From assembly GCA_002685935.1 (NCBI GenBank), contig NYZD01000083.1, positions 1 through 38,661 on the forward strand: a DNA stretch of 38,661 nt, given 5' to 3'. Made by a program: the position numbers and the translations under genes. Shown one piece after another: positions 20,620 to 36,752 of the stretch. How positions within the stretch are numbered: the stretch's first letter is position 1; every line of letters starts with the position of its first letter. The notes beneath the pieces were generated by a model, which was not told the origin of the DNA, ran no database searches, and saw only the letters and a list, made by a program, of their open reading frames with translations. This DNA is from Planctomycetaceae bacterium (lineage in GTDB: Bacteria > Planctomycetota > Phycisphaerae > Phycisphaerales > Zrk34).

Positions 20620-23600
20620 CTACCCCACCTCAAACGACGTCGTCGCGGCCAGTCCCAGCGCCGCATCGGCTACGCTGATCGTCCATGTGCCGCCCGCGCC
20701 GTTGACCGGAAGCGTGCGCTCGATCATCGCCGTGCCGTTGTGCACGACCACCGGCCCGCCAAGTTGCCGATGCGCCTGGCCGTCGGGGTCGATGACCGTC
20801 ACGTCCAGCAGATAAGCGCCGCGTATCGGTCCCGACGCGCCCTCCACGGCCAGCTCGTATTTTAGCGGTCCGCCCGCCTGCACGTGACGATTCCCAACCA
20901 CCACCCCGCACGTCCGCGGCCCGTCCGGCAGCAACGCCACCAGCGCCCCGTGATAACGCCGCAGAGATACCACGAAGCTCACACCATCGCCCTGCGGTCC
21001 CAGCTCGACCGGCGCCGCCCGCGTCAGATCAATCGCGAATCGCGGCTCGAATGGCAGCTCGCGCAACGTCACCTCAACCGCCGCCTGGGCCTCGCCAAGA
21101 TTCGTGATCGGCACCAGGCACACGCCGTCGCCCAGCCGCGGCGCCGCGTCGAAATCCCCGCGGTCCACCTGCCACCTGGGCCGCAACCCCGCGTCGCCGA
21201 GCAGCCGACCAACCGCCGTCTCAATCTTCTCCTGGATCCCCGCGCGCCCACTCTCCAGCGCATCGGCGTACGCCGTCTGCAGGCTCGCCGTGAATCGCAC
21301 CACCACACCCCGACCAAACGTGAACCGCTCGTACCCCAGCCCCGGCACAATCACCCCCTGCTCGGTCGGCCCATCTTGTGTCAGACGCTCCACAAAGTCC
21401 CGGCGCGCCCCGGTCTCGTCCCGCGCCGGATCACAATCCAGCACCAGCACCCCACCCGCCTCCACATACGCGCCAAGCTGCTGCATCGTGCGTCCCATCA
21501 GAAAGCGGCAGTCGGTAATCACAATCGCCTGATAGTCGATCGTCCGTTCGCATAAAAGTTGCTCGTCGACCTGTTCGACGTCGCGAATCGTCCGGTGCAT
21601 CAGCTCGTACGCCAGCATGCGGCGATTTTCGTGCGGCCACTGCCCGTCGAACGGCGCGCCGCGCGACATGCGGTAGTAACCGTACCCCTCGTGATTCGGC
21701 GGCAACCGGTGCGGCGCCGGGTCCATCACCCATTGACACCACGGGTTCATGAATGCAAGACGCCCGCGCGGACGCCGCGTCTGCGCCAGCAGCGGAAAAT
21801 ACGGACGAATCCTGCCGACCTCACTGCCGAACTCCCGCACACGCTCCTCGCTGATCCCGAACACCTCCGATCCATACGAGATGTAAAACGTGTTCATCCG
21901 CGTCACGCCCTCGGCCAGCAACGCATAAAACTGACCCACCGGCCAATACGGCAGCATCTGCCGGTTCGGGATGTCGTTCTCCCACAACTCCATGAACACG
22001 CCCCACGGAATGTCGTAATGTCTCGCCAGTCCACGGATCCACGCCGCGATCCAATGCGTCTGGCTGTGCGGCGCCTGATGCCGACCGCGCCACACCAGAT
22101 AGCTCCACGGATAGCACGCCATATAGATCTCGTCGCCCCACTTCGCCCAACGGTGCATGCCGTTGAACATGAAGTTGCTCGAGAACAGCCGATCCACCGC
22201 CACGTTGTGCAGATGCAGTTCCGGGGCCAACTCATCCTTGACGCCGCGCATCGTCTCAAAGGCCCGCGCGCTGTACTCCTCGAGCCATTCAAACAACCGC
22301 CATCGCCGCGTCGTCTGATCGCCCGCCAGATCGTCCCAGATCGGAATCGGCTCACCGTATCGCTGCTCGTACAACTCCTGACAGATCGCGCATCGGCACA
22401 CGTTCGCCGGGTACAGGTGTGGCTCGTCGATGATCTCCCTGGAAATCAATCCCTTGCGCAATCGCTGCAGCGCCAGCAGCGGCGTCAGACGCTCGCGCAC
22501 CGCCGCTTCGTAATCCGGATGGTGCACGCACGGCTCCGTGGGTAGGTACGGCTCCTTCGTGCCATGTGTGGCCAGCAGAACCGTGTATGCATCAAAATCC
22601 GCCCACAGCCGCCGGCCGTGCGCCGTGACCATCGCGTCCACGTACCGCAAACGCCGCACCCGAAGCGTCCGCTCGTGCCACGGCGTCGACTCATCCGCCA
22701 ACGCATCGCCGCGACCGGCCACAGGGATGCTCAACGTGTCCATCCCGTAACCGTCCAGGTAACCGTCGATCCGCGCCGCCAGTTCGACCTCGCTGGATCG
22801 TCCTTCCCGAAAATGCCCCGCCACGTGGAACTCCTCCTCAGCATCCGACACGTGCACTACTTTCAGTCCGTATTCGAACCGCTCAACGTCGCCGGTCGTC
22901 AACGTCACCGTAATTCGAGCCGTGTAATCGCCCAGCGCCAGCGCCGGGACCGACCACGACAGTTCCCGCTCGCCCCCGTCGCTCTCGACCGCAGCCTCAC
23001 CCACCGCCCGACCCGCGCCATCCACCACATCCAACTCCACCGACGCAGCCCCCGGCGGCGCCACGCGCACCGACCACCGATCACCCTCGCTCACCGCGCA
23101 CGTCCAGTCTTTCACCGTCACCCGCGACCGGCGCTGATCGCCGAAGCGCACCCCAAACCGCCGCACGTCCACCGCCTTGTGCTTCCAACTCGTCCACTGC
23201 GGCGGCAATGACATCCCGAACGAGCCCGGTGGCGGTGCGTTGGGCGGATCGTCCATCTCCACCGCCAACTCGACCTCGTACACGCCGTGGCACTGACCCG
23301 CTGCCGGATCCGCCAATTCAATCGTTGCCTCAAACGTCGACGCGTCGATCGGCCACGTCTGCTCGACCACAGTTTGCGTCGTGACCGTGTCGCCGCCCGC
23401 CATCAGACGCCCCTCGTCGACCGCCCGCATCGAGCAGCGCAACCGCGCTCCCTCCGCCCGCTCGGGCATCGCGACGCCCACGTGAACAACCTGCCCGTCG
23501 CTCGTCGCGCTCGCATCGCCGCCCGGCTCGACTTTGCTCAAGTGCATCGGTAACTCGACGCCCATCAGCCACGTCATCAGCTGTCGCATCAAATCTCCGT

Positions 23601-24252
23601 AGAACGGATGTCCGTAGAAACCCGACGCATCCAGCGCATCGCAACTCATTCCCTCAGCACCCGCCACCGCCAGGATCGCCTGGCGCGCGCCGAATCGCTC
23701 CGTGACCGCGAGCACCGGCTTGTCGTCCGCCGCGAGCAACACCGCAGCGTCCGCGGCCGGCTCGATCGGATGCAGCGCCGTGATCCCGCCAAACGCATCC
23801 GGCAGCCCGCGCAGCAAGGGGTGCGCCGCCGCGACTCGAACCTTCGCGTCCACGTCATCCGCCTTCGCCACCGGCACGTGCGCCGGCAGCGCCCCTTCAA
23901 CATCGTGCCACACTCGATACCCATGCCCCAGCCCGAACTGACCCCCGCACAGCAGCACCGCCAGACCGCGCTCCGCCGCCGAACGAAAGTGCGCCACGTC
24001 GCGCTCGCCGCCGGCCTCCAGGTCCACGCCCGCAAAAATCGCCAGATCGTGCTGCAGCCAACCCGGATAACCTTCACTCGCCGTCGACACGCGCTGCGGC
24101 AGTGCGGGCCACAGCGGGATCCACGGCGTGTTGAAGAAGTATTGGTTGAACCGCGTCTTGTACGCCAGCCCCTCCGACGCCGCCTCAAGCTGGTAAGGAT
24201 TATCCACGTGCGGACGCACGAGCATGATTTCACGAATGCCGGCTGGGTCCAT
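20620..24252 (-). CDS. 1210-residue protein: GATase-like domains flanking a TIM-barrel glycosidase-like domain
   Basis: No signal peptide. Residues about 45-230 look like a class I glutamine-amidotransferase-like fold (L-A-I-F-A-G-V-D at 69, G-L-A-V-L-L-C-G-G-Q near 97), which in such proteins is structural. Residues about 240-500 are beta-sandwich. From about 540 to 860 a TIM barrel is suggested by L-I-S-R-E-I-I-D-E-P-H-L-Y-P (near 600), a C-R-C-A-I-C motif just after it, and W-G-V-F-M-E-L-W-E-N-D (near 752). The two Glu are possible catalytic residues. A second Rossmann-like domain (Y-Q-A-I-V-I-T-D-C-R-F, V-E-A-G-G-V-L-V-L-D-C-D) lies at about 900-945, as in GH42-type trimerisation domains. 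The last 200 residues are beta-rich. I read it as a cytoplasmic glycosidase distantly like GH42. Codons end mostly in G. It diverges from the 24490 gene. Confidence 0.75.
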   Translation of the reverse strand: MDPAGIREIMLVRPHVDNPYQLEAASEGLAYKTRFNQYFFNTPWIPLWPALPQRVSTASEGYPGWLQHDLAIFAGVDLEAGGERDVAHFRSAAERGLAVLLCGGQFGLGHGYRVWHDVEGALPAHVPVAKADDVDAKVRVAAAHPLLRGLPDAFGGITALHPIEPAADAAVLLAADDKPVLAVTERFGARQAILAVAGAEGMSCDALDASGFYGHPFYGDLMRQLMTWLMGVELPMHLSKVEPGGDASATSDGQVVHVGVAMPERAEGARLRCSMRAVDEGRLMAGGDTVTTQTVVEQTWPIDASTFEATIELADPAAGQCHGVYEVELAVEMDDPPNAPPPGSFGMSLPPQWTSWKHKAVDVRRFGVRFGDQRRSRVTVKDWTCAVSEGDRWSVRVAPPGAASVELDVVDGAGRAVGEAAVESDGGERELSWSVPALALGDYTARITVTLTTGDVERFEYGLKVVHVSDAEEEFHVAGHFREGRSSEVELAARIDGYLDGYGMDTLSIPVAGRGDALADESTPWHERTLRVRRLRYVDAMVTAHGRRLWADFDAYTVLLATHGTKEPYLPTEPCVHHPDYEAAVRERLTPLLALQRLRKGLISREIIDEPHLYPANVCRCAICQELYEQRYGEPIPIWDDLAGDQTTRRWRLFEWLEEYSARAFETMRGVKDELAPELHLHNVAVDRLFSSNFMFNGMHRWAKWGDEIYMACYPWSYLVWRGRHQAPHSQTHWIAAWIRGLARHYDIPWGVFMELWENDIPNRQMLPYWPVGQFYALLAEGVTRMNTFYISYGSEVFGISEERVREFGSEVGRIRPYFPLLAQTRRPRGRLAFMNPWCQWVMDPAPHRLPPNHEGYGYYRMSRGAPFDGQWPHENRRMLAYELMHRTIRDVEQVDEQLLCERTIDYQAIVITDCRFLMGRTMQQLGAYVEAGGVLVLDCDPARDETGARRDFVERLTQDGPTEQGVIVPGLGYERFTFGRGVVVRFTASLQTAYADALESGRAGIQEKIETAVGRLLGDAGLRPRWQVDRGDFDAAPRLGDGVCLVPITNLGEAQAAVEVTLRELPFEPRFAIDLTRAAPVELGPQGDGVSFVVSLRRYHGALVALLPDGPRTCGVVVGNRHVQAGGPLKYELAVEGASGPIRGAYLLDVTVIDPDGQAHRQLGGPVVVHNGTAMIERTLPVNGAGGTWTISVADAALGLAATTSFEVG

Positions 24253-24489: not shown

Positions 24490-26013
24490 ATGACCGACGC
24501 CCACGACCCCGCCCTGCACCTGTTCGTCGACGATCATCACATCCGCAACTTCCTATCAATGAAGCGCGTCTTCGGCGCCGCGACCAGGCACCCCCAACCC
24601 GCGCTCACCGACATTGCCGGCCGGACCATCGGATGGGGCTGTGTCATCTCCGAACAGGGCAAACACCGCCTCTGGTATGAGTCCGGCGTGCCCAACAATT
24701 GCCACGATCTGGCCACCGCCGGCGTCTGGGGACGCGGCGCCGACTACGCCTACCACCCCGATCGCCATCCCGACGCCGTCCCCGAATACCAGGCCTCCGT
24801 CCTTAGCTATGCCGAAAGCGCCGACGGCTTCACGTGGACACGTCCCGACGACCTCGGCTTGATCGAATGGCAGGGCTCGACCGCAAACAACATTGTCATG
24901 GACGGTTCCAGCGCCGCCCAACACTACGACAACGCCCTGACCCACCTCGACAGCCCCTCCGTCGTGCGCGATGACGATGCCCCCGCCGAACAGCGCTACA
25001 AGTTCATCGCACACTGGGCATCGATGCACGCTTTCGACAACAGCATCTCCGACCTCAATCGACCCGACGCCGACATGCAGCGCTTCTGGGCTGCCAGCGC
25101 CAAATACATCACCACCAGCCCCGACGGCATCCACTGGCACGGCCCGCCCACTCGACTAAAAGAACACGCCGGCGGCGGAGACTACAGCGGCGTCACCCGC
25201 GACCACCGCAACCAACGATGGTGGTACAACGACCGCGCCCGCCACGGCCTCTGGGGGCCAACCTACATCCGCACCGCCGGCCTCTGCTCCAGCCCGTCCC
25301 TCGACCACTGGCCCCAGCACGTCGAACAGCTCTTCCCCCTCGCCGAAACCGAAGACTTCGGCGCCCGCTACGAACATCACGGCATGGTCCCCTTCAACTA
25401 CGGCGACCAGGACCTCGGCTTTCTCGAACTTTCAACTAAGGGCAAGCCCAAAGCCAGCCTCCTCGTCAGCCACCACGACGGCGGACGATGGCGCCGCGTC
25501 CCCGACGCGCCACCCATCCTCGAATGTGGCCCGCCCGGATCAATCGACAGTTGGATCGTCTTACCCACCCGTAACGCCCCGCTCCTGGTCGGCGACGAGA
25601 TGATCATCACCTACAACGGACGCCGCACATCAGATCACGACCCCACCCTACATCACGGCTGCCTATGCCTCGCCAAAATGCGCCGCGACGCATTCGTCGG
25701 CATGCAGGTAGACCGCCACGCCGCCGCCCGGCACGACAGACCCGCGCTCCTCCAGACCCAGCCCGTCGCCGTCACCGTCGACACGCTCGCCCTCAACATC
25801 GAACAACACCGCGGCACCGCCCGCGCTGCCCTGTTCGATGAAGCCGCCGAGCCCATAGACGGATTCTCCCTCGACGACTGCCTGCCCATCGACGAAGACA
25901 ACACCCGCGCCCCCGTCCGCTGGAAAAACGCCGACCTCCGCCAACTCATCGACCGACGCGTTATCCTGCTCATCGAAATCCAGGCCGGCATCGTCTGGTC
26001 CTTCCGCCTCTGA
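24490..26013 (+). CDS. GH32/GH43-like five-bladed-propeller glycosidase, paralogue B
   Basis: A 507-residue cytoplasmic protein. It begins H-L-F-V-D-D-H-H-I-R-N-F and shows the same propeller rhythm as the 18226 gene: Y-A-E-S-A-D-G-F-T-W, T-T-S-P-D-G-I-H-W-H-G and C-S-S-P-S-L-D-H-W. It closes with a sandwich domain ending F-S-L-D-D-C-L-P-I, A-P-V-R-W-K-N-A-D-L-R and W-S-F-R-L. It should act on a sugar chain inside the cell; the linkage is unknown. GGAG lies 9 bases before ATG 24490. The URO-D-fold gene starts 33 bases after its stop with its own good ribosome site, so the two are very likely one operon. The long minus-strand frame covering 25663-27186 is an antisense shadow. Confidence 0.82.
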   Translation: MTDAHDPALHLFVDDHHIRNFLSMKRVFGAATRHPQPALTDIAGRTIGWGCVISEQGKHRLWYESGVPNNCHDLATAGVWGRGADYAYHPDRHPDAVPEYQASVLSYAESADGFTWTRPDDLGLIEWQGSTANNIVMDGSSAAQHYDNALTHLDSPSVVRDDDAPAEQRYKFIAHWASMHAFDNSISDLNRPDADMQRFWAASAKYITTSPDGIHWHGPPTRLKEHAGGGDYSGVTRDHRNQRWWYNDRARHGLWGPTYIRTAGLCSSPSLDHWPQHVEQLFPLAETEDFGARYEHHGMVPFNYGDQDLGFLELSTKGKPKASLLVSHHDGGRWRRVPDAPPILECGPPGSIDSWIVLPTRNAPLLVGDEMIITYNGRRTSDHDPTLHHGCLCLAKMRRDAFVGMQVDRHAAARHDRPALLQTQPVAVTVDTLALNIEQHRGTARAALFDEAAEPIDGFSLDDCLPIDEDNTRAPVRWKNADLRQLIDRRVILLIEIQAGIVWSFRL

Positions 26014-26046
26014 CCTCGCAACAGTCCCGCTCCGGAGACACAACAG

Positions 26047-27135
26047 ATGTTCGATCTGAAGCCCGACTTCGAGCGCGTCCTCGAACGTTACGAGGCGTGG
26101 TGGCATTGCCAGATCGTCGATCGCCCGCTCGTCGCCATCGCCTTCCCTGTCCCCGATGCTCGCCGCCTCGCCCCGCCGCACAAACAACACCCAACCGTCC
26201 GTGACCGATGGCTCGATACGCAGTACGTCGTGGCCGCGCACGAAACACGTCTCCAAAACACCGTCCACTACGCCGACGCACTGCCCATCGCATACCCCAA
26301 CCTCGGCCCCGAAGTCTTCTCCGCCTTCTATGGATGCGAGCTGGAATTTGGCCCGACCACCTCCTGGAGTAAACCTATCCTCACCGATTGGTCTAAACAG
26401 TCCCTCAGCCAACTCCGCCTCGACACCGACAACTTCTACTTCCGCAAGCTCAACGAACTCACCGACGCCCTGCTCGAAGCCGCGAAGGATACCTTCATCG
26501 TCGGCTACACCGACCTCCACGGCGGAGGCGACGCCATCGCCGCATTCCGCGACCCACAGCAATTGCTCTTCGACACCATCGAACATCCCCATGCCATCAA
26601 GCGTTTGTGCGATACCGTCACCACCGACTTCCTCAGCGTCTACGACCACTTCCACCAGAAGCTGTCCGCCGCCGGCATGCCCAGCACCACCTGGCTGCCC
26701 GTCACCGGCAAAGGTAAGTGCCACGTCCCCTCCAACGACTTCTCCTGCATGATTGCCGATGAAGTGTTCGAAGACCTCTTCGTGCCCGGCATCATCCGTG
26801 AATGCCGACACATGGACCGCTGCATCTACCACCTCGACGGCCCCCAGGCCCTGCGCTATCTCGACCGCCTTCTCGAAATCCCCGAGATCCACGCCATCCA
26901 ATGGGTCGCCGGCGCCGGCCGAAACTACTGGGCCGATTGGATCCACGTCTACCAACGCATCCAGGCCGCCAATAAGGCGATGCAAATCCCCTCTGTCCCC
27001 GCCGAAGACCTCGACCTGCTGTTCCAGTCCCTGCATCCTCAAGGCGTCTGGATCAGCTCCGTCATCGGCATCGAAAACCAGCACGACGCCGACGCCGCCC
27101 TCGCCCGCATCGCACAATGGACAACCAAAACATAA
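26047..27135 (+). CDS. URO-D-superfamily protein, paralogue A
   Basis: A 362-residue TIM-barrel protein resembling the uroporphyrinogen decarboxylase/corrinoid methyltransferase superfamily: N-terminal E-A-W-W-H-C-Q-I-V-D-R-P, middle D-L-H-G-G-G-D-A-I-A-A-F-R-D-P-Q-Q-L-L-F-D, then S-N-D-F-S-C-M-I-A-D-E-V-F-E-D-L-F-V-P. The core block is Y-H-L-D-G-P-Q-A-L-R-Y-L-D, with L-L-E-I-P-E-I and A-I-Q-W-V-A-G-A-G-R-N behind it. MtaA/CmuA-type methyltransferases have a zinc-binding H-x-C at the H-L-D-G position; here the Cys is Asp, so a standard methylcobamide reaction is doubtful. True heme-pathway HemE is excluded by context and lack of its N-terminal signatures. The ribosome site CGGAGA precedes ATG 26047. 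It follows the propeller glycosidase by 33 bases. Its relative at 34325 also follows a glycosidase. Confidence 0.82.
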   Translation: MFDLKPDFERVLERYEAWWHCQIVDRPLVAIAFPVPDARRLAPPHKQHPTVRDRWLDTQYVVAAHETRLQNTVHYADALPIAYPNLGPEVFSAFYGCELEFGPTTSWSKPILTDWSKQSLSQLRLDTDNFYFRKLNELTDALLEAAKDTFIVGYTDLHGGGDAIAAFRDPQQLLFDTIEHPHAIKRLCDTVTTDFLSVYDHFHQKLSAAGMPSTTWLPVTGKGKCHVPSNDFSCMIADEVFEDLFVPGIIRECRHMDRCIYHLDGPQALRYLDRLLEIPEIHAIQWVAGAGRNYWADWIHVYQRIQAANKAMQIPSVPAEDLDLLFQSLHPQGVWISSVIGIENQHDADAALARIAQWTTKT

Positions 27136-27213
27136 ACTCCAAGCCAAAGCGCCGAACGCAATGCCCCGCGCCTTGCCCACTCGCACTCCATTCAGTTTCC
27201 CGTGAGGTGCAAC

Positions 27214-27435
27214 ATGACACGATCACTGACGATTGTTGCCCTGCTCTTCGCAACCCATGGCTGCGCCCGCCAACCTTTACTCTCTGACCCGGAGTCAGCC
27301 CAATTCAAGCCGGCCTCCGCCGAGCCCGAGAGCGTGTTCCAGGATTGTGACGACAAGCTCGAATCGCTCCGGACGGGTCTTGCTCGTGACCGAACCGCCC
27401 CACGCACCGTGATCGCCGCCGGTGACCGCGGATGA
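27214..27435 (+). CDS. Small putative lipoprotein
   Basis: A 73-residue frame with GAGG before ATG 27214. It starts M-T-R-S-L-T-I-V-A-L-L-F-A-T-H-G-C, a short signal with a Cys at residue 17 that could be a lipobox, although H-G before the Cys is only a fair match. The rest is hydrophilic with no recognised domain, and it may be the remnant of a longer gene. It lies between the URO-D-fold gene and the isomerase gene, with 10 bases to the latter's start, so it would be part of the same transcript. Confidence 0.45.
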   Translation: MTRSLTIVALLFATHGCARQPLLSDPESAQFKPASAEPESVFQDCDDKLESLRTGLARDRTAPRTVIAAGDRG

Positions 27436-27445
27436 AAGCAGGCAA

Positions 27446-28273
27446 ATGAAACCCGCGATTTTCACTTCGTTCGATGAAACGATCCCCCTGACGCAAGCCA
27501 TTCCCATGATTCGCGACGCGGGATTCGAAGCCGTGTCCTTCGGAGCCAGGCCCCAGCAATCAGACTGCACGACCGCGCACGCAAGAGACGCCATTCGAAA
27601 GCTGATCGACGCCAGCGGCATGACGATCGACTCCCTGCACGCCCCTTTCCCCGAGGCAGATCGCCTGTTCTCACTCGATGAGACCGAGCGCTCCGAATCC
27701 ATACGCCAATGCCGGATCTCCCTCGATGCCGCCGCCGACCTCGATGGCAAAATCGTCGTCATCCACCTCATTCAGCCATATGGCATCCCGCCCGGCGAAG
27801 TGCGAAACAAGATGATTGAGCGGGGCCGGCGCAGCGTCGGTGCCCTGGCCGACTACGCCGCCGATCGAGGCGTGAAGCTGGCCCTCGAAAACGGACAGAA
27901 ACGCGATTACGATCAGGTGTTGGCAGGCCTCCTCGCCGAATTCAACGATCCCCACGTCGGGCTTTGTTACGATTCAGGTCACGAGAACGTCCAGGGCACA
28001 TGTTTCAAGCTGCTCGAGCAGTTCGCCGATCGACTCCTGACCGTCCACATCCACGACAACCGGGGATCCGACACCCACACGCTGCCCTATGAGGGAACGA
28101 TCGACTGGGATCGCTTCCGCGAAATACTCCACGGACTTCACTACGCCGGCAACCTGCTCCTCGAAGTGCACATGCACCATTCCCAATTCAAGGACCACAA
28201 AGTGTTTCTCGCCGAGGCCCGCAAGCGCGCCCACAAGCTGCTTCAACCTCCGCTCGAAGATCACAAGCAATAG
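27446..28273 (+). CDS. Xylose-isomerase-like TIM-barrel sugar isomerase/epimerase
   Basis: A 275-residue protein of the xylose isomerase-like/AP endonuclease 2 fold, the family of sugar phosphate isomerases/epimerases (IolE/IolI, hydroxypyruvate isomerase, tagatose epimerase). Metal and substrate positions are easy to follow: D-S-L-H-A-P-F-P near residue 60, V-V-I-H-L-I-Q-P near 110, L-A-L-E-N-G-Q (a Glu ligand), G-L-C-Y-D-S-G-H-E-N (Asp and His), L-L-T-V-H-I-H-D-N-R-G-S-D-T-H and L-L-L-E-V-H. All usual metal ligands seem present, so it should be active. The sugar is unknown. ATG 27446 matches the family start M-K-P-A-I-F-T-S-F. It probably ends the transcript that begins with the 24490 propeller gene. 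Confidence 0.9.
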   Translation: MKPAIFTSFDETIPLTQAIPMIRDAGFEAVSFGARPQQSDCTTAHARDAIRKLIDASGMTIDSLHAPFPEADRLFSLDETERSESIRQCRISLDAAADLDGKIVVIHLIQPYGIPPGEVRNKMIERGRRSVGALADYAADRGVKLALENGQKRDYDQVLAGLLAEFNDPHVGLCYDSGHENVQGTCFKLLEQFADRLLTVHIHDNRGSDTHTLPYEGTIDWDRFREILHGLHYAGNLLLEVHMHHSQFKDHKVFLAEARKRAHKLLQPPLEDHKQ

Positions 28274-28434
28274 ACTGGTCCGCGCCCCGCCCTGCCGATC
28301 GAAACGCCAAACAGCAGCGACCGCCGCCTCCCCAACTCCGACGCTTGACAACTCACCGTCGCGCGAATCGACCTGTCAAAACACACCCCCAGCAACGGTC
28401 CCCGACGGTTCCACCTCAAACTCCCAATACCCCC

Positions 28435-29688
28435 TCAGATCTCCCCCACACCCAGATGCCGCGCCCCATCCTTCGGCGCCGCCTCAGGCCCCACCTCCGC
28501 GAACCCAACCGGCGACTCAAAACGCACCCCGCCGCTATCGCCCACCACATCTTCCGCCCGTTGCTCCCGACCATCCACTGTGTTGCCCACCACATAGACC
28601 TCCTCGACCGGTCCACCCACGCAGATCACTGGCCTCGACTCCGGTCGAATCGCGTTCGACTCCACCCAGACCTCCCGCAACCCCGCCGCGATATCGATCT
28701 CCGCCCGACCTTCGCCCTTGCCGTTCGCCGCAATCTCATTCCGCCGCAGTCGCACCCGGTCCCCCGACCGTCGCATCGGCTCGCGAAACAACACCCCCGC
28801 GCCCCCGTTCTCGCGGATCACGTTCCCCTCAATCAAATGGTCCGAGTCGCGCTCGCCGATCGATATCCCGTCCAATCCATTCCGCTCGATCGTGTTGCGA
28901 TCGCACCGCGAATGCGTCGTCCGCAGACAATAGAAAATCCCGCACCCCCCGTTGTCATGCACATGATTCCCACTGATGACATAACGCACCGTCCCGCTGC
29001 CCGGATGCAACCCCTGCCCCGTCACGTGATGCACCCCACACGCCGTTACGTTCACATCAACGCATTGCTGAAACCCAATCCCATCCCCACGATAGTTCCT
29101 CACCTCGACGCCGCACACCTCAATCGATCGGCTCCCCAGCACAAACACGCCGCTCCCCCGACATCCGTTCAGCGTGAACGTCTCCTCATCCATGTTCCCG
29201 TCTAGCGTCAGACCCTCGATCCCCGCATTCGACACGCCCTCCATCTCCACCAGACTATACGCACTGACCGCCCGCGCGTGATCCGCCGGCGCGTAGTCAT
29301 GATTCAGCATCCGATCGATGAACAGCCGCTCCCCGTCAATCCCCACAATCGTCGCCACCGTCGTGTAAAACCCAAACGCCTTGTCGTCCAGCACGTGCAC
29401 GCCCATCCCCACGCGAAACTTCTCCGGCTCCGCCACCGTCAACTCGTAATGTCCGTACCCCAGATAATCGACGATGACACTCGCCACGCTCGGCGCCTTC
29501 TCAAGCACCGTCCCCGCCTCACCCACCACCCGCACCCCGTCCCGCAGCCGTAGCGCGTTCTCCATCCGATACGTCCCCGCCGGCACTTCAACCACACCCC
29601 CGCCCGTCCCCGCCATCTCATCAACCGCCCGCTGAATCGTCGCGGCAGTGGGGGGGTCGCGGTCAATCACGATGTGCGTCGTACCCAT
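28435..29688 (-). CDS. Right-handed parallel beta-helix protein (pectate-lyase-like)
   Basis: A 417-residue protein. The start A-T-I-Q-R-A-V-D-E-M and G-G-G-V-V-E-V-P-A-G-T-Y is the classic entry of pectate-lyase-3/GH28-like beta-helices. Then come many short rungs such as I-E-G-L-T-L-D-G-N, I-E-V-C-G-V-E-V-R-N-Y, I-S-G-N-H-V-H-D-N-G-G-C-G-I, R-N-T-I-E-R-N-G-L-D-G-I-S-I and I-E-G-N-V-I-R-E-N-G-G-A-G-V, the N-x-I-x-x-N-G pattern of parallel beta-helix repeats. It may cleave, epimerise or bind a uronate-rich glycan; catalytic residues cannot be assigned. No signal peptide is seen, which is unusual for such proteins. GGGAGA precedes ATG 29688 and decides against an in-frame start 36 bases upstream. 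Codons end in G. It diverges from the secreted repeat protein. Confidence 0.85.
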   Translation of the reverse strand: MGTTHIVIDRDPPTAATIQRAVDEMAGTGGGVVEVPAGTYRMENALRLRDGVRVVGEAGTVLEKAPSVASVIVDYLGYGHYELTVAEPEKFRVGMGVHVLDDKAFGFYTTVATIVGIDGERLFIDRMLNHDYAPADHARAVSAYSLVEMEGVSNAGIEGLTLDGNMDEETFTLNGCRGSGVFVLGSRSIEVCGVEVRNYRGDGIGFQQCVDVNVTACGVHHVTGQGLHPGSGTVRYVISGNHVHDNGGCGIFYCLRTTHSRCDRNTIERNGLDGISIGERDSDHLIEGNVIRENGGAGVLFREPMRRSGDRVRLRRNEIAANGKGEGRAEIDIAAGLREVWVESNAIRPESRPVICVGGPVEEVYVVGNTVDGREQRAEDVVGDSGGVRFESPVGFAEVGPEAAPKDGARHLGVGEI

Positions 29689-30161
29689 CAGTCGTCTCCC
29701 TGAACTCGACAAACGATACCACACGCCGCGCCCCGCCGGTCACCCGCGCGTCCCATCCCCCGCCCTCACGCCGTCGCCCCACAATCACGGGCCGCCCGTC
29801 CGCGCCGCCCTCCTCGAACGTTTCGAAATGATCACGCCGCAATAGACTCAATGAACTCTTTTCTTGACGCGTTCACGCCGGCCAATCAAGACGCGCCCGT
29901 GCCCCGTCAAAACTCCATGTCCAACAGATATTGATAAGTAACTCACCTCCAACCTATTTGTTATCGAAATAACATGCCGCCGCGCCGTGATATTAAGTTG
30001 CGATCAACCCCCCTGCCTCACCCCGGCCCTCATCCACCTCGGCCCGCCGAACGTAGCAACGCCCCGCGCCGGCCGCTACAGTGAACGTAACGTCCGACGA
30101 TTCGGACCCGGAAAAGGCGCTCGGGAAAGGTCGCTTCACACAACTTGGCGGAGGGTGAGAA
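29689..30161. other. Divergent, partly A+T-rich regulatory region
   Basis: These 473 bases lie between the minus-strand beta-helix gene and the plus-strand secreted repeat protein. The part at about 29860-30000 is clearly richer in A+T than its surroundings and holds a TTGACG at about 29863, the palindrome at 29959-29974 and short TA-rich pieces. It is the most likely promoter/operator region of the window. No gene is seen inside. Confidence 0.5.
29959..29974. promoter_or_regulatory. Perfect palindrome, possible operator
   Basis: TGTTAT (29959-29964), CGAA (29965-29968), ATAACA (29969-29974): a perfect 6-bp inverted repeat in an A+T-rich pocket of very G+C-rich DNA, between two divergent genes. 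It is suited to a dimeric repressor such as a LacI- or GntR-type sugar regulator, although no regulator gene is in the window. Confidence 0.5.
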
Positions 30162-31586
30162 ATGGTTCCTTCAAGAATGACGCAAGTCGGTTTCGCTGTC
30201 TTGGGCGCGCTGTTGTGTGCTTCGACCGCGCACGCCGCCGAATGGATCAATCCCGTCGCCGGCAATTGGACCGACGGCACCAAATGGTCCACCGGTTCCG
30301 AGCCCACCTCCACCGACCCCGCCGTGTTCCCGGACTCCGGTTCCTTCATCGTTACCGTCACCGGTTTCCACGATGCGAAATCCCTGTCGGTGACCGCTCC
30401 GACCGTGCGCTTCAGTGGCACCGCCGGCAACCGCATCATCGACCTCGTCAACGACCTGTTCGTCAATGGCGGCACCATCGATCTCGACGACATGGTCGTC
30501 ATCAAGGCCGGCGACACCGGTGTCGGCGCCATTCGTGTCCGATCCGGCGCCACCATCAACGTCCAGACCGCCAGTGCCCTCTGGGGCGATCGCCTGAACA
30601 TCGGAGAAGCCGGGACCGGCACCGACAACGCCATCAACCTCATCGGCGGACAGCTCACCACCAAGGACACCAGCGGCACCAACAACTTCATCGGTCGTAG
30701 CGGCTCCACCGGTCGTCTTGTCCTCAGCGCCTCCGCCACCGCCAACTTCGCCCACACCATCGGCATGGCCGACTCCGCCAGCAACAACAGCAAGGGATAC
30801 CTCGACGTCCTCACCAACAGCACCCTCACTGCGCGCGGCATCCTCATCGCCACGCGCGGCATCCCCGGCCAGGACGCCCGACTCACCGTCAGTGGCTCTG
30901 GCTCCCTCGCAGAGCAGGACGCGTGGGGAAATGACCTGACCATCGGCGCCGCGTCCAACAGCACCGGCGAACTGCTCGTCTCATCAAGCGGCAGATTTGA
31001 GACCGCCCCTTTCGGCCAGGTCACCGTCCACAACACCGGTGCCATCACCCTCACCAGCGGCGGGCAGTTCGACCTTCGCAGCAACATGCTCATCGACGGC
31101 GGCCTCTTCACCGGCAGCGCCGCTGGCCTGAACTTCGTCGACACCGGCGTCGGCAGCGCCGTCGGCATTGATATTCGCAATGGCGGCAAGCTCGACCTCA
31201 CCTCTTCACTCATTTACACCGACGACGCCGCCATCACACTCGCCGACACCGCCTCCGAACTTGAGGTCACCAACTTCATTGTCCACACCTCCATCACAGC
31301 CGACACCGGCTCGATCATCGATGTTGATACCCTCAGTGTCCACGAAGGCGCCGTCACCGCCGCCGACACCGGCACCACCATTGACGTCGCCGGTGACCTC
31401 AGCATTGGTTCACCAGACGTCGGCTCCAGACTTGTCACCATCGAGAACGACGCTATCGCCACCATCGGCGACGATCTCTACGTCGGGCGCCAGCCGACCA
31501 TCTCACCTGACCGTCATCCGTTCGCACGGCGTGCCGCATATTCGCCGGCTCGGATGCCACACGAAACACGCAAAGCCAAAATCTAG
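30162..31586 (+). CDS. Secreted beta-helix/autotransporter-like repeat protein, 3' end probably broken
   Basis: A 474-residue protein. GGAGGGTGAG directly precedes ATG 30162. The signal peptide (V-G-F-A-V-L-G-A-L-L-C-A-S-T-A-H-A-A) is followed by E-W-I-N-P-V-A-G-N-W-T-D-G-T-K-W-S-T-G, the entry of exported planctomycete repeat proteins. Gly/Thr/Asp/Asn-rich rungs continue to about residue 440, e.g. I-D-V-A-G-D-L-S-I-G and I-A-T-I-G-D-D-L-Y-V-G. After D-D-L-Y-V the sequence turns into R-Q-P-T-I-S-P-D-R-H-P-F-A-R-R and stops. The neighbouring frame continues the pattern with G-A-S-R-P-S-H-L-T-V, as if one G in GGG (about 31486-31488) were extra. No PEP-CTERM, autotransporter barrel or sorting signal is found, so the 3' end is likely truncated or frameshifted. 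It is probably a surface or extracellular protein. Confidence 0.78.
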   Translation: MVPSRMTQVGFAVLGALLCASTAHAAEWINPVAGNWTDGTKWSTGSEPTSTDPAVFPDSGSFIVTVTGFHDAKSLSVTAPTVRFSGTAGNRIIDLVNDLFVNGGTIDLDDMVVIKAGDTGVGAIRVRSGATINVQTASALWGDRLNIGEAGTGTDNAINLIGGQLTTKDTSGTNNFIGRSGSTGRLVLSASATANFAHTIGMADSASNNSKGYLDVLTNSTLTARGILIATRGIPGQDARLTVSGSGSLAEQDAWGNDLTIGAASNSTGELLVSSSGRFETAPFGQVTVHNTGAITLTSGGQFDLRSNMLIDGGLFTGSAAGLNFVDTGVGSAVGIDIRNGGKLDLTSSLIYTDDAAITLADTASELEVTNFIVHTSITADTGSIIDVDTLSVHEGAVTAADTGTTIDVAGDLSIGSPDVGSRLVTIENDAIATIGDDLYVGRQPTISPDRHPFARRAAYSPARMPHETRKAKI

Positions 31587-32026
31587 ATATATATATCCTA
31601 ACAGTAAGTCCGTCACGATCAAGTCTTTTCTCCTGTCATCCCGCCTCATCCCCCAGCGCCTCAAACCAACGCATCGGCGACGCCCGACGTATCTCATCGC
31701 ACCGGCATCTTCCGTATCTTACTGTCTTTTCAATATATACAATCACTCGGCCCCGCCGCTCCGCCCGACGGCCCTCCCGACCCCCATCCGTCAAACGACG
31801 CCACCCCCGCACCGCCGATCACCGCCCACCCGCCGGTGCCGCGCCCCGCGCCCACCCCAACACCATCAGCCGCCACCGGTCCCCCCGGCCGACCACCCAA
31901 CACCCGAATCAAACGCCCTCACCGCGTGCCCCGGCGCCCTGCATGGCGCATTCGATCAGGCTATTCTCTACACGCTGTGATCCATCCATCCCATCCCGCA
32001 CCACCTGCCGCACAAGGTTACTCCCC
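31587..32026. other. Intergenic stretch with A+T-rich pieces
   Basis: Besides a possible decayed continuation of the repeat protein, it holds A+T-rich pieces (a TA-repeat at about 31586-31599 and another at 31730-31741) that could carry the promoter of the GH127 gene. The second half is extremely C-rich and I see no gene. AAGG at about 32015 serves the GH127 start. Confidence 0.4.
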
Positions 32027-33949
32027 ATGACACTCCCCGCCGCGCGCACCATCCCCAACCTCAAAATGCAACTCGACGGCTTCATCGCCGACTACCTCCG
32101 CGGCGTCACCGATCAGTGGCTCCTCCCCGCTCCGGCCGCCAACCCCGCCATCCTCGAAATGTTCCGCGATCGCGACGCCTCCCCCGTCCGCGCCGGCGTC
32201 GAGTGGTGTGGCGAGTTCGCCGGCAAATACCTCACCAGCGCCGTCCAGATCCTCCGCATCACCGCCGACCCCGCCCTCAAAGCGTCACTCCGACAGTTCG
32301 TCCGCCGACTCATCAGCTTCCAGGATACCGACGGCTACCTCGGCCCGTGGACCCGCGCCTGTCGTCTCACCAACAAAGACCACACCGGCACAGGAAACTG
32401 GGATACTTGGTCCCACTATCACATCATGATGGGTCTCACCCTCTGGCATGAAGTCACCCGTGACGCCGACGCCCTCACCGCCGCGACCAAAATCGCCGAC
32501 GCCCTCTGCCGCAAATACCTCGGCAACAAGAAACCTCGACTTGTCGACACCCCCTACACCGAAATGAACCTCGCCCCCGCCCACGTCCTGCCCATCCTTC
32601 ATCGCAAGACTAGGGACGAACGCTACCTCAAACTCGCCCGCCAGTTCGTCGATGAATTCGCCGCCAAAAACAGAAAAGGCCCCCTCGCCGGCGACTATCT
32701 CAACCTCGCCCTCGCCGGTATCGAGTACCACAAAACCCCCAAACCCCGCTGGGAAAGCCTCCACCCCGTCATGGCCCTCGCCGAACTCTACTGGGCCACC
32801 GGCGATCCCAAATTCCGCGATGCCTACGCACAAATCTGGTGGAGCAACCTCAGATTCGACCGCCACAACAACGGCGGTTACTCCTCAGGCGAACAGGCCA
32901 AAGGCGATCCCTACGACTTCGGCGGCATCGAAACCTGCTGCACCATCGCCTGGATGGCCACCACCGTCGAAATGCTCAAGCTCACCGCCGACTCCGTCGC
33001 CGCCGACGAACTCGAACTCTCAACCCTCAACTCCGTCGTCGGCATGCACTCCGTTACCGGCAGATGGTGCACCTACAACACCCCCATGAACGGCGTCAAG
33101 AGAACATTCCTGGATGCGTGCAACTGGCATGCCCGGCCCGGCGGCGGCGAACTCAGCTGCTGCACCGTCAACTCCCCGCGCGGCTTCGGATACCTCAGCG
33201 ACTGGGCCTGCATGCGCGATCGCCACGGACTCATCCTCAACTACTACGGCCCATCCACCTTCTCACCCAAACTCAAGCCCGGCATCGCCGTCACCCTCAC
33301 CCAGCAAACCAACTACCCCGTCGATCCCCACATCAAAATCCGCGTCGCCCCCACCAAGCCCGCCGAGTTCACCCTCAAACTGCGCATCCCCCATTGGTCC
33401 AAACGAACATCACTCAAAGTCAACGGCAAAACCATCCCTAAAATCGCATCCGGTCAATACGCCCACATCACCCGCCGTTGGCGCCGCGGCGACACCATCG
33501 ATCTCAAACTCGACTTCGCCCTGCACTTCTGGACCGGCGAAAAAGACTGCAAAGGCTTCACCTCCGTCTACCGCGGTCCGATCCTCCTCGCCTACGACCA
33601 CCGCTACAACCTCGAGCACGCCACCCCCGGCAAGCCCGTCAATTTCTACGACTATCTCGAAGAGCGCCGCGAATCACCCAAGTGGAACGCCACCGACTGC
33701 CTGCTCAATGTCCCCGCCCTCAGCGCCAAGAATCTCAAACTCACCCCCGCCAAGTGGACCGAATGGATGCCCCCCGTCCTCTTGGTCAAATGCAAAGCCG
33801 CCAACGGAAAAACCGTCCACCTCTGCGACTTCGGCAGCGCCGGCGAAACCGGCACCCCATTCCTCTCCTGGCTCCCTGTCAAACACCTCCCGCCCGTCCC
33901 CGACTTTTCTCCTGCCACCCCCCTCGGCACCAACCGTTGCACAGCCTGA
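32027..33949 (+). CDS. GH127 (DUF1680) beta-L-arabinofuranosidase-like glycosidase
   Basis: A 640-residue protein close to the 600-680 aa usual for GH127. The (alpha/alpha)6 part is clear: A-G-V-E-W-C-G-E-F-A-G-K-Y-L, Q-D-T-D-G-Y-L-G-P-W, W-D-T-W-S-H-Y-H-I-M-M-G-L, and S-G-E-Q-A-K-G-D-P-Y. The zinc/catalytic cysteine pattern of this family is present: E-T-C-C-T-I-A-W (Glu and Cys) and later S-C-C-T-V-N-S-P-R-G (Cys-Cys). The C-terminal beta-sandwiches follow (L-K-L-R-I-P-H-W, R-G-P-I-L-L-A-Y-D). Known members remove beta-L-arabinofuranose or related sugars using a cysteine nucleophile. No signal peptide, so it is cytoplasmic. ATG 32027 was chosen over an in-frame upstream frame because of AAGG and the family start. 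The small membrane protein, the URO-D-fold gene and the dehydratase gene follow closely on the same strand. Confidence 0.92.
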   Translation: MTLPAARTIPNLKMQLDGFIADYLRGVTDQWLLPAPAANPAILEMFRDRDASPVRAGVEWCGEFAGKYLTSAVQILRITADPALKASLRQFVRRLISFQDTDGYLGPWTRACRLTNKDHTGTGNWDTWSHYHIMMGLTLWHEVTRDADALTAATKIADALCRKYLGNKKPRLVDTPYTEMNLAPAHVLPILHRKTRDERYLKLARQFVDEFAAKNRKGPLAGDYLNLALAGIEYHKTPKPRWESLHPVMALAELYWATGDPKFRDAYAQIWWSNLRFDRHNNGGYSSGEQAKGDPYDFGGIETCCTIAWMATTVEMLKLTADSVAADELELSTLNSVVGMHSVTGRWCTYNTPMNGVKRTFLDACNWHARPGGGELSCCTVNSPRGFGYLSDWACMRDRHGLILNYYGPSTFSPKLKPGIAVTLTQQTNYPVDPHIKIRVAPTKPAEFTLKLRIPHWSKRTSLKVNGKTIPKIASGQYAHITRRWRRGDTIDLKLDFALHFWTGEKDCKGFTSVYRGPILLAYDHRYNLEHATPGKPVNFYDYLEERRESPKWNATDCLLNVPALSAKNLKLTPAKWTEWMPPVLLVKCKAANGKTVHLCDFGSAGETGTPFLSWLPVKHLPPVPDFSPATPLGTNRCTA

Positions 33950-33978
33950 CCCGCGCACCCAATTTCGGAGGCAATGCC

Positions 33979-34251
33979 ATGAACTCAGATGAACCCGAAG
34001 CCCCCTGGCGCACCATACTCGGCGCCGTGTGCATCGTCGTCTTCTGCGCCGCGCTCTGCGGCGCCTTCGGCTACCTCACTCAGACCGGTTTCTTTGAAGC
34101 CGCCTCGGGCGACCCCACGCTGCAGAGATCCGTCTCCGAGCCGATCACCAAACAGCAATACCAGAAACAAACCAGACGCGGATGGTGGATCGGCTGCGCC
34201 GTCGGCGGCACGCTCGGCGCCGGCTACGTCCTCTGGCCGAGAAAATCCTGA
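33979..34251 (+). CDS. Small two-helix membrane protein
   Basis: A 90-residue protein with CGGAGG before ATG 33979; an ATG five bases earlier stops at once. One hydrophobic helix lies at about residues 12-32 (I-L-G-A-V-C-I-V-V-F-C-A-A-L-C-G-A-F-G-Y) and a second, Gly-rich, at about 71-86 (W-I-G-C-A-V-G-G-T-L-G-A-G-Y-V-L-W), joined by a polar K/Q/R-rich loop. No family is recognised. It sits 29 bases after the GH127 gene and 73 before the URO-D-fold gene, so it is probably co-expressed with them. Confidence 0.7.
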   Translation: MNSDEPEAPWRTILGAVCIVVFCAALCGAFGYLTQTGFFEAASGDPTLQRSVSEPITKQQYQKQTRRGWWIGCAVGGTLGAGYVLWPRKS

Positions 34252-34324
34252 CCGCCCCCGCGCCCCCTTGCGTCCCACACCCCAACCCGTTCACATAAGT
34301 CGCCCACACCACCAAGGATCCGCC

Positions 34325-35449
34325 GTGAGCGACGACGCCCCCCGCACCCTCGACCCCGCCCACCTCTCTGTCGCTCCGCACTACGACCCGCAATTCAAAA
34401 CCAACTGGCCGGCATTCTTCGACCGCATGACCGCATGGTGGCACGGCACCCTCCCCGGCCCCATCATCCGCATCCCCATTGCCGACCCTAGTGATCCGCC
34501 TCCGCCCTTGCCCGACGACACCGACTTCCAGGCCCACGCCAACGACGTTGAATCCAGCATTCGCCGGCGAGAACACACCTTCCAATCCACGCGATTCCTC
34601 ACCGATCTGCCCCCGAGCGCCTCGGACTTCATCGGACACGGCATCGCTTCCTATTTCGGCTGTCCGCTTGAGTACCGCCGCGAAACCGTCTGGACCCACC
34701 CTTGTCTCAACGCCATCGACGACCCGATCGACGTCACCCGCTGGCGCACAGATGCCCGTTGGCTCGCCGCCATCGATCGAATCCGATACATGACCAACCG
34801 CGCCGCGCGTCGATACGGCGTCGCCTACTACTTGGGCGGCATCATTCAGGGAATGTCCCTCATGCGCGGCGACGAAGCCTTCCTCATCGACCTCATCGAT
34901 CACCCCAATCACGTCGAATCCCTGCGCGACCGACTCCTCCCCCAGTGGTTTGAAATGGCCGACCAACTCGAAGCGCTGCTTCCCCCCGACGCCGGCCGCT
35001 GGGCGCCCTTCTCCCTCTGGGCCCCCGGTCGATTCGCCTTCCTTGAGTGCGACGTCTCCTGCAATTTCTCACCCGACCACTTCCGCCGATTCGTTGTCCC
35101 CGAACTGCTCGCCATGGTGCGCTGGGCTCCCTACAGCCTCTACCATCTCGACGGGCCCGGCGCCATCCACCACCTCGACGCCCTCCTTGAAATCCCCGAA
35201 CTCGACGCCATCCAATGGATCCGCGGCGACGGCGCCGGCAACGCCCTCGACTGGCTCGACCTGCTCCAGCGCATCCAGGCTGGCGGCAAACGACTCTACG
35301 TCGAATGTCCCCCCGACGAACTTCAGCCCATGCTCGATGCCCTCGATCCCCGCGGCCTGCTCATCACCGTCGACCCGCCCGCCCATCCCGAACAGCTCGA
35401 CGCCCTGCAGCGCATCGCCTCCCAGCACGCAGCCGACCAGAACGACTGA
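34325..35449 (+). CDS. URO-D-superfamily protein, paralogue B
   Basis: A 374-residue TIM-barrel protein clearly related to the 26047 gene: T-A-W-W-H-G-T-L-P-G-P-I-I-R-I-P-I, then G-G-I-I-Q-G-M-S-L-M-R-G-D-E-A-F-L-I-D-L-I-D-H-P, C-D-V-S-C-N-F-S-P-D-H-F-R-R-F-V-V-P-E-L, and Y-H-L-D-G-P-G-A-I-H-H-L-D with L-L-E-I-P-E-L and A-I-Q-W-I-R-G-D-G-A-G-N behind it. As in the relative, H-L-D-G stands where zinc-binding H-x-C is expected in methylcobamide methyltransferases. The D-x-S-C motif is shared by both. The start is GTG 34325, with AAGGATC upstream; the frame is open further up only because it overlaps the membrane-protein gene. It sits between GH127 and the enolase-superfamily gene, with 40 bases to the latter. 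Function unknown; a sugar-linked role is suggested by repeated context. Confidence 0.82.
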   Translation: MSDDAPRTLDPAHLSVAPHYDPQFKTNWPAFFDRMTAWWHGTLPGPIIRIPIADPSDPPPPLPDDTDFQAHANDVESSIRRREHTFQSTRFLTDLPPSASDFIGHGIASYFGCPLEYRRETVWTHPCLNAIDDPIDVTRWRTDARWLAAIDRIRYMTNRAARRYGVAYYLGGIIQGMSLMRGDEAFLIDLIDHPNHVESLRDRLLPQWFEMADQLEALLPPDAGRWAPFSLWAPGRFAFLECDVSCNFSPDHFRRFVVPELLAMVRWAPYSLYHLDGPGAIHHLDALLEIPELDAIQWIRGDGAGNALDWLDLLQRIQAGGKRLYVECPPDELQPMLDALDPRGLLITVDPPAHPEQLDALQRIASQHAADQND

Positions 35450-35489
35450 CCATCCATCACCAACCCCCGCCCCGCGCATGGAGACTTCC

Positions 35490-36752
35490 GTGGACCCATC
35501 AAGCAACTTCAACCCACACTCAAATCCATCGCAACTCAAAATCACCGACCTGCGCGTCGCTCGGCTCGTCGGCCAGCCCATGGACTGCAACGTCCTCCGG
35601 CTCTCCACCAACCAGGGCATCACCGGCTACGGCGAGGCCCGCGACTTCGGCTCCAAAACCTACACCCTCATGCTCAAGAGCCGACTCCTCGGCGAAAACC
35701 CCTGCGACATCGATCGCCTCTTCCGAAAAATCAAGCAGTTCGGACATCACGGCCGACAAGCCGGCGGCGTCTGCGGCATCGAATTGGCCCTCATCGACCT
35801 CGCCGGGAAGGCCTACGGCGTCCCCGCTTACCAACTCGCCGGCGGAAAGTTTCGCGACAAGATCCTCTGCTACGCCGACACCACCTCCTCCCCCGACCCC
35901 ACCCAAATGGCCGCCCACCTCCAACGCCGCATCGACGAGGGTTTCAGATTCCTCAAGATGGATGTCGGCATCGATCTGCTCCGCGATACCCCCGGCGCCC
36001 TCGTCGCGCCCCCCGGCATGCTCGACAACACCGACCTCATGCATCCGTTCACCGGCATCCAGATCACCGACATCGGCATCGACGCCCTTTGCGCCTACGT
36101 CGCCGCCATCCGCGATGCCATCGGCTACGACATCCCCCTCGCCGCCGACCACTTCGGACACCTCGGACTCGAATCCTGCATCCGCCTCGGACGCGCCCTC
36201 GATCAGTTCACCCTCGCCTGGTACGAGGACATGATCCCCTGGCAGTTCACCGATCAATACGTCCGGCTCTCCCGCGCCGTCAACACACCCCTCTGCACCG
36301 GCGAAGATATCTACCTCGCCCAGGGCTTCGCCGACCTGTTCCAACACCGCGCCATCTCAATCGCACACCCCGACCCCATGACCTCCGGCGGCATTCTCGA
36401 AACCAAAAAAATCGGCGACCTCGCCCAGGAACACGGCATCGCCATGGCCCTCCACATGGCCGGCACCCCCATCGCCGTCATGGCCGCCGTCCACTGCGCC
36501 GCCGCCACCGAAAACTGCCTCGCCCTCGAGTTCCATTCCGCCGACCTGCCCTGGTGGTCTGATCTCGTCGAAGGCACCCCCCGCCCACTCGTCCAGGATG
36601 GCCACATCCACGTCCCCGACACCCCCGGCCTCGGCATCACCGCCCTCAACGAAGATCTCATGCGCCAACACCTCAACCCCAACGACCCCGACTTCTTCAA
36701 CCCCACCGACACCTGGAACTCCGAATCATCCCACGATCGCCTCTGGAGCTAG
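35490..36752 (+). CDS. Enolase-superfamily (mandelate racemase/muconate lactonizing) sugar-acid dehydratase
   Basis: A 420-residue member of the mandelate racemase subgroup. The N-terminal capping domain (L-K-I-T-D-L-R-V-A-R, I-T-G-Y-G-E-A-R-D) is followed by the barrel: F-L-K-M-D-V-G-I-D (K-x-D), metal ligands Asp in L-A-A-D-H-F-G-H-L-G, Glu in W-Y-E-D-M-I-P-W and Glu in C-T-G-E-D-I-Y, and a His in M-A-L-H-M-A-G-T-P near the last strands. All metal ligands are present, so it should be active. Related enzymes dehydrate acid sugars or aldarates, or cycloisomerise lactones; the exact substrate cannot be told. GTG 35490 is preferred over ATG 35478 because the G-G-A-G at 35480-35483 is an ideal ribosome site for the GTG. 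It ends the GH127 transcript unit and would suit the step after uronate oxidation. Confidence 0.88.
   Translation: MDPSSNFNPHSNPSQLKITDLRVARLVGQPMDCNVLRLSTNQGITGYGEARDFGSKTYTLMLKSRLLGENPCDIDRLFRKIKQFGHHGRQAGGVCGIELALIDLAGKAYGVPAYQLAGGKFRDKILCYADTTSSPDPTQMAAHLQRRIDEGFRFLKMDVGIDLLRDTPGALVAPPGMLDNTDLMHPFTGIQITDIGIDALCAYVAAIRDAIGYDIPLAADHFGHLGLESCIRLGRALDQFTLAWYEDMIPWQFTDQYVRLSRAVNTPLCTGEDIYLAQGFADLFQHRAISIAHPDPMTSGGILETKKIGDLAQEHGIAMALHMAGTPIAVMAAVHCAAATENCLALEFHSADLPWWSDLVEGTPRPLVQDGHIHVPDTPGLGITALNEDLMRQHLNPNDPDFFNPTDTWNSESSHDRLWS

Follow-up and report, generated by a model that had tools for sequence, protein, structure and literature searches.

What is the function of two related proteins that are encoded near glycosidase genes in a polysaccharide-degrading planctomycete, but match no protein family model? 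The stretch analysed (the window) comprises 38,661 nucleotides from Planctomycetaceae bacterium (contig NYZD01000083.1 of assembly GCA_002685935.1, forward strand), and the proteins in question are P0001 and P0002 (Table 1). A preliminary description, made from the sequence alone, had regarded them as paralogues with the uroporphyrinogen decarboxylase (URO-D) fold, sharing the motifs W-W-H, D-x-S-C, Y-H-L-D-G-P, L-L-E-I-P-E, A-I-Q-W and G-x-G. Both open reading frames (ORFs) were found at their coordinates, and all of these motifs were present, as AWWH, DFSC/DVSC, YHLDGP, LLEIPE, AIQW and a G-rich stretch. P0001 and P0002 could be aligned over 284 residues with 28% identity (E 5e-34), so their likeness was attributed to homology. 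We refer to them and their relatives as the HLDG family, after the tetrapeptide at the putative active site. On balance, we favour the view that both proteins act as substrate:corrinoid methyltransferases of the MTI type, the substrates in the window probably being O-methylated sugars. The corrinoid methyl-transfer role of the HLDG proteins is the stronger half of this claim and is considered likely; the sugar substrate is the weaker half, and rests on the glycosidase neighbours. From the evidence below we infer both that the HLDG protein itself acts as the MTI and that its substrate in the window is an O-methyl sugar.

No Pfam or NCBIfam model matched P0001 or P0002 at E 0.01. The gathering score of the URO-D model PF01208 was not reached, and among 11 family members only one grazed this model (E 0.097). 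Sequence searches of PDB with P0001, P0002 or the family profile returned nothing reliable. The AlphaFold (AF2) models of P0001 and P0002 had pLDDT values of 96.4 and 85.9, respectively, and the only PDB structures matched at E<1e-5 were HemE/UROD and MtaA. For P0001, the highest TM-score (0.62/0.65) was that of MtaA (4ay8), which for P0002 had the best E-value and the top rank. Weaker structural matches were class II HpaI aldolases, with TM-scores below 0.4. The URO-D fold was thus borne out by structure prediction and PDB structure matches, and by their predicted fold P0001 and P0002 are members of the URO-D TIM-barrel superfamily.

It was found that the HLDG family occurs together with RACE (PF14574), which reductively activates corrinoid proteins. 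RACE was present in 45 of the 50 genomes that contain the HLDG loci, compared with 1 of 14 control genomes. Among 160 genomes sampled from the class, 51 had both HLDG and RACE, 2 had HLDG only, 31 had RACE only and 76 had neither (p 2.5e-17), and in the same phylum outside the class RACE was found in 13 of 14 HLDG genomes versus 40 of ∼167 genomes without HLDG (p 4e-7), both p values being uncorrected for shared ancestry. In the class sample, RACE also occurred in 69 of the 72 genomes that encode at least three URO-D proteins. The window's genome (G000; 3.5 Mb, 79% complete) contained RACE, a corrinoid protein, a homocysteine S-methyltransferase and a URO-D protein together on contig C3, and another corrinoid protein among URO-D genes on contig C149; RACE and corrinoid proteins were thus encoded in this genome as well as in the population samples. 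It gave 31 matches to PF01208, none of HemE grade. On contig C149 (L108; 1233-3314, minus strand), a DUF1638 domain fused to a URO-D domain was observed beside the corrinoid protein and more URO-D proteins.

Direct operons with corrinoid methyl-transfer genes were also observed. At three loci from a single genus of family f9 (L181, L182 and L185), HLDG was the last gene of a one-strand cluster with short gaps, in the order corrinoid protein, MTHFR, MeTr, amidohydrolase, URO-D (HTDG), URO-D (HTDG), URO-D (HLCG), HLDG. L182 and L090 are one locus. The same order was found again in family f11 (L177), with RACE divergent, and at another locus of f11 (L176) the module immediately preceded HLDG, without the URO-Ds. 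At L086, HLDG was surrounded by numerous URO-D genes and by those for RACE, a corrinoid protein, MTHFR and MeTr, and at L075 RACE and a homocysteine methyltransferase were located near HLDG. A URO-D paralogue with H-L-C-G was found directly 5' of HLDG in L077, L082, L090 and L185, sometimes with a stop/start overlap, which suggests that the HLCG paralogue and the HLDG protein form a working pair.

The preliminary description had placed HLDG at the zinc site of the superfamily, with the zinc-binding Cys replaced by Asp. Profile-profile alignment (hhalign, 98.5%) showed that HLDG falls on the H-x-C-G of ordinary URO-D proteins, which in turn aligns with LHICG of MtaA, so at the profile level the placement is upheld. 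In 152 distinct sequences of the family, D231 and H262 were conserved in all 152, and D264, at the place of the Cys of H-x-C (S-methyl type), in 150. The scan pattern included HLDGP, and the conservation of HLDG in the scanned set is therefore partly built in; the whole-profile genome searches and the 152-sequence tally are mostly free of this bias. The alignment of Asp with Cys stood, but the replacement is not unique: H-x-D-G is common, and the residue at this position in 98 ordinary URO-D proteins of the same loci was Cys in 45, Asp in 45 and His in 6. It was reported that the S-methyltransferases of the superfamily use His-Cys-Cys, whereas the O-methyltransferases have carboxylates or non-ligands in place of one Cys or of both (Kountz and Balskus, PMC10418091), and that CdmB and a Moorella O-demethylase function without zinc (PMC13222342). 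Because a carboxylate replaces Cys in the O-methyl type and zinc-free enzymes exist, the Asp of the HLDG site points to O-methyl chemistry, and not to a dead site. A metal may be bound at the His/Asp site.

A bacterial genome scan with a five-sequence profile yielded 201 places encoding relatives, of which 80 were kept. These belonged to Planctomycetota, Verrucomicrobiota/Lentisphaerota/Kiritimatiellota, Chloroflexota, Clostridia, Spirochaetota, Latescibacterota and others. In the tree, the HLDG proteins formed one side of a branch opposite the ordinary URO-D proteins (SH-aLRT 100, length 1.65), and P0002 fell in a subgroup distinct from that of P0001. P0001 nested among proteins of Kiritimatiellota, Lentisphaerota and other phyla with ∼70% identity, whereas no relative from its own family or order exceeded 43%, which suggests, on sequence grounds, that P0001 was acquired by horizontal transfer. 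About a third of the genomes sampled from the class (53 of 160) contained the family, with up to seven copies per genome. Besides P0001 and P0002, the window's genome encoded an HLDG member on contig C75, where a GH42-type gene came next and a heparinase II/III-like gene lay nearby, and two remoter members that have HLHS in the HLDG position. The family has no name, spans many phyla and keeps its His/Asp site fixed. In three Chloroflexi loci (L044, L050 and L060), a DUF6937-DUF6938 protein was observed directly 3' of the HLDG gene.

The link to sugars came from the neighbourhoods. In unrelated phyla, the operon neighbours of HLDG included members of the glycoside hydrolase (GH) families GH2, GH31, GH78, GH29, GH4 and GH38, a ROK kinase, AraC and LacI regulators and ABC transporters. 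Genes of the P0001 type adjoined GH31 and GH2 (L019), GH2 (L016) and GH29 (L018). Resembling the context of P0002, a GH127 homologue was located 188 bases from the HLDG gene in L154; a homologue of the enolase-type dehydratase overlapped the HLDG gene in L013, and a DUF2961 gene, which we take to be family GH172, was found near the closest relative of P0002 (L149). All three HLDG genes of the window's genome adjoin carbohydrate enzymes. The sugar link of the family is therefore recurrent, but it is not statistically proven. Of the new sugar-linked group proposed earlier, the unnamed family and its recurring sugar neighbours were confirmed, and an excess of glycosidases over genes 5.5 kb away was not.

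It was also proposed earlier that the substrates might be O-methylated sugars or sugar acids. RACE, the corrinoid-operon links and the carboxylate rule (PMC10418091) favour the former, and no evidence was obtained for the latter. In the mechanism that we envisage, a glycosidase would free the methylated sugar, which would be taken up by the HLDG TIM barrel with its methoxyl oxygen near His262/Asp264. Site chemistry could involve a metal, or His and Asp acting directly, and the methyl group would be passed to Co(I) of a corrinoid protein. In the window's genome, the corrinoid proteins, RACE and the methyl acceptor enzyme would act in trans, being encoded on contigs C3 and C149. The methyl group would end on tetrahydrofolate or a thiol; in the former case MeTr would hand it to tetrahydrofolate and MTHFR would oxidise it, while RACE would repair oxidised cobalt. 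The freed sugar would enter catabolism.

Methyl ethers are frequent on plant, algal and bacterial glycans. A search of the literature library for sugar O-demethylation by UroD proteins or for an anaerobic sugar O-demethylase found no description, and no paper there described the HLDG family. It is a tentative idea, which we consider possible, that the HLDG family is the missing anaerobic B12-dependent O-demethylase for methylated polysaccharide sugars, residing in glycan loci, using His/Asp instead of a thiolate zinc site and channelling methyl groups into folate metabolism, in Planctomycetota, Lentisphaerota/Kiritimatiellota, Chloroflexota, gut Clostridia and Spirochaetota. If true, glycan degradation would be tied to B12-dependent one-carbon metabolism in planctomycetes and gut Clostridia, and it would be explained why some planctomycetes have about 30 URO-D paralogues, none of HemE grade. 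The URO-D superfamily and the principle of corrinoid O-demethylation are already known; what is new is a family without a name that crosses phyla, the fixed His/Asp site of this family, its association with RACE and one-carbon modules, and its repeated occurrence in glycan loci. To call this an undescribed system, as had been done, was too strong, since the proteins form a new family within the known corrinoid methyltransferases and the Asp is not unique.

Several observations weigh against assigning O-demethylation of sugars to the HLDG proteins. The RACE co-occurrence may partly reflect the shared ancestry left in the p values, and RACE was missing from 2 of the 53 HLDG genomes (G017, 98% complete; G140, 74%). 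A corrinoid protein was found within ∼10 kb of HLDG in 7 of 154 loci, where the two share a cluster with an MTII in three planctomycete lineages, the rest being without one, and no corrinoid gene was located near P0001 or P0002 in the window. The corrinoid operons encode up to four proteins with the URO-D fold, HLDG included, and the catalytic MTI could therefore be one of the others. At the place of the third zinc ligand, the C-terminal Cys of MtaA, no conserved Cys, His or acid was found, although the alignment is weak there. Glycosidases adjoined HLDG in ∼7–9 of 88 cases, compared with ∼3–4 of 85 at 5.5 kb (planctomycete class, among the matches listed), which is no clear difference. The corrinoid clusters also include an amidohydrolase, so the substrates need not be sugars.

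The last two points are shared by the strongest alternative, in which the HLDG proteins are corrinoid-linked methyltransferases but take the methyl group from donors other than sugars (for example osmolytes, methylated aglycones or products of the amidohydrolase), and the glycosidases nearby reflect genomes that are rich in them. We consider this unlikely. The amidohydrolase is fixed in the f9 and f11 clusters: in the corrinoid-MTHFR-MeTr-URO-D operon of these two planctomycete families it was recognized by Pfam in L090 and L176, with an equal-sized gap at its place in L181, L185 and L177, and it may reveal the substrate of this operon. The neighbours of HLDG are also very diverse. These observations are countered by the glycosidases, ROK kinase and sugar regulators in operons of unrelated phyla, and by the carbohydrate enzymes beside three of three copies in the window's genome.

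Less probable is that the URO-D scaffold here serves a sugar enzyme other than a methyltransferase, for example a decarboxylase, aldolase or epimerase that acts on sugar acids in a metal-dependent manner through the His/Asp pair. P0002 adjoins a sugar-acid dehydratase, the models have the weaker HpaI aldolase matches, and most loci have no corrinoid gene nearby; but the aldolase TM-scores are low, and both the RACE association and the operons that join HLDG directly to genes for a corrinoid protein, MeTr and MTHFR argue against it. We know of no member of the URO-D superfamily that is a sugar-acid decarboxylase, aldolase or epimerase. It is more doubtful still that HLDG is a non-catalytic partner or delivery subunit of adjacent HxCG URO-D methyltransferases in a heteromeric pair. 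The commonest single operon neighbour of HLDG was indeed another URO-D (PF01208; 21 of 103), and the HLCG paralogue lies immediately upstream, with an overlap or a short gap, at the four loci named above; however, a URO-D neighbour was present at only 42 of 154 HLDG loci and at neither copy in the window, and the almost complete conservation of His and Asp is like that of an active site. A HemE-like uroporphyrinogen decarboxylase of haem synthesis shares the fold and is among the top PDB matches, but is considered very improbable given the lack of a PF01208 match in P0001 and P0002, up to seven copies per genome, and a RACE link in place of any HemE-grade match (E<1e-90) in the 53 HLDG genomes of the class.

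The methylcobamide:coenzyme M methyltransferases MtaA, MtbA and MtsA (PDB 4ay7, 4ay8) resemble HLDG in the URO-D fold, the H-x-[C/D]-G place and the corrinoid context, but HLDG has Asp for the first Cys, does not conserve the third ligand Cys and is only ∼10% identical in the fold alignment; the coenzyme M pathway is not implied. The O-demethylases OdmB, VdmB, MtvB and MtoB, together with CdmB, all MTI of the UroD superfamily, are alike in the proposed MTI role, in their corrinoid protein, MTII and RACE partners, and in their carboxylate or absent zinc ligands (PMC10418091, PMC13222342). The first four use methoxylated aromatics and CdmB, a chloromethane dehalogenase, uses chloromethane, whereas HLDG genes adjoin glycosidases; the sequence match of CdmB to P0001 was at E 0.25 only. 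Type 1 mlp clusters combine several URO-D methyltransferases with a corrinoid protein and RACE, as is the case with HLDG, but their proteins keep His-Cys-Cys and were assigned to S/Se-methyl chemistry (Kountz and Balskus, PMC10418091), whereas HLDG has His-x-Asp and its clusters add MTHFR and MeTr. HemE/UROD shares the fold but differs in sequence match and copy number, as above, and no haem gene context was seen for HLDG.

Table 1. Coordinates of P0001, P0002 and neighbouring features in the window
Feature	Position	Strand	Remark
P0001	26047..27135	+	362 aa; HLDG family; predicted URO-D fold; predicted substrate:corrinoid O-demethylase
P0002	34325..35449	+	374 aa; GTG start; HLDG-family paralogue of separate subgroup
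His262-Leu263-Asp264 codons of P0001	26830..26838	+	H-x-C zinc-ligand position by profile alignment
His-Leu-Asp codons of P0002	35144..35152	+	Equivalent of the P0001 His262-Asp264 site
507-aa ORF	24490..26013	+	Possible beta-propeller glycosidase, GH32-like superfamily; ends 33 bases before P0001
GH127-type beta-L-arabinofuranosidase	31943..33949	+	PF07944 1.2e-38; PF20736 1.9e-23; upstream of P0002
90-aa ORF between GH127 and P0002	33979..34251	+	Probable small membrane protein; no Pfam
Enolase-superfamily sugar-acid dehydratase	35478..36752	+	Begins 28 bases past P0002
Xylose-isomerase-like TIM barrel protein	27422..28273	+	PF01261 3.8e-32; downstream of P0001

The preliminary description had placed each of the two genes directly behind a glycosidase. 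The spacing between the 507-aa ORF and P0001 was as given there, but P0002 does not directly follow a glycosidase, as it is separated from GH127 by 375 bases including the 90-aa ORF. That the 507-aa ORF encodes a propeller glycosidase is plausible, but its identity was not established by any match of its own in Pfam or PDB; a homologue (L148:7978-9456) showed a weak GH32N match (E 7e-4). The best homologues of this ORF were found in genomes without HLDG, indicating that its pairing with P0001 is not conserved. The ORF at 25663-27186 on the minus strand and other overlapping frames were ruled out by codon-position GC and homology.

Elsewhere in the window, two overlapping plus-strand ORFs in different frames at 15740-18194 matched DUF5703 N-terminal and GH95 catalytic/C-terminal domains, and apparently represent a GH95-like gene split by a frameshift or sequencing error. 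A 1210-aa ORF on the minus strand (20620-24252) gave only a weak MG2/DUF7382 match, and its homologue adjoins a URO-D gene on contig C69 of the same genome (L128).

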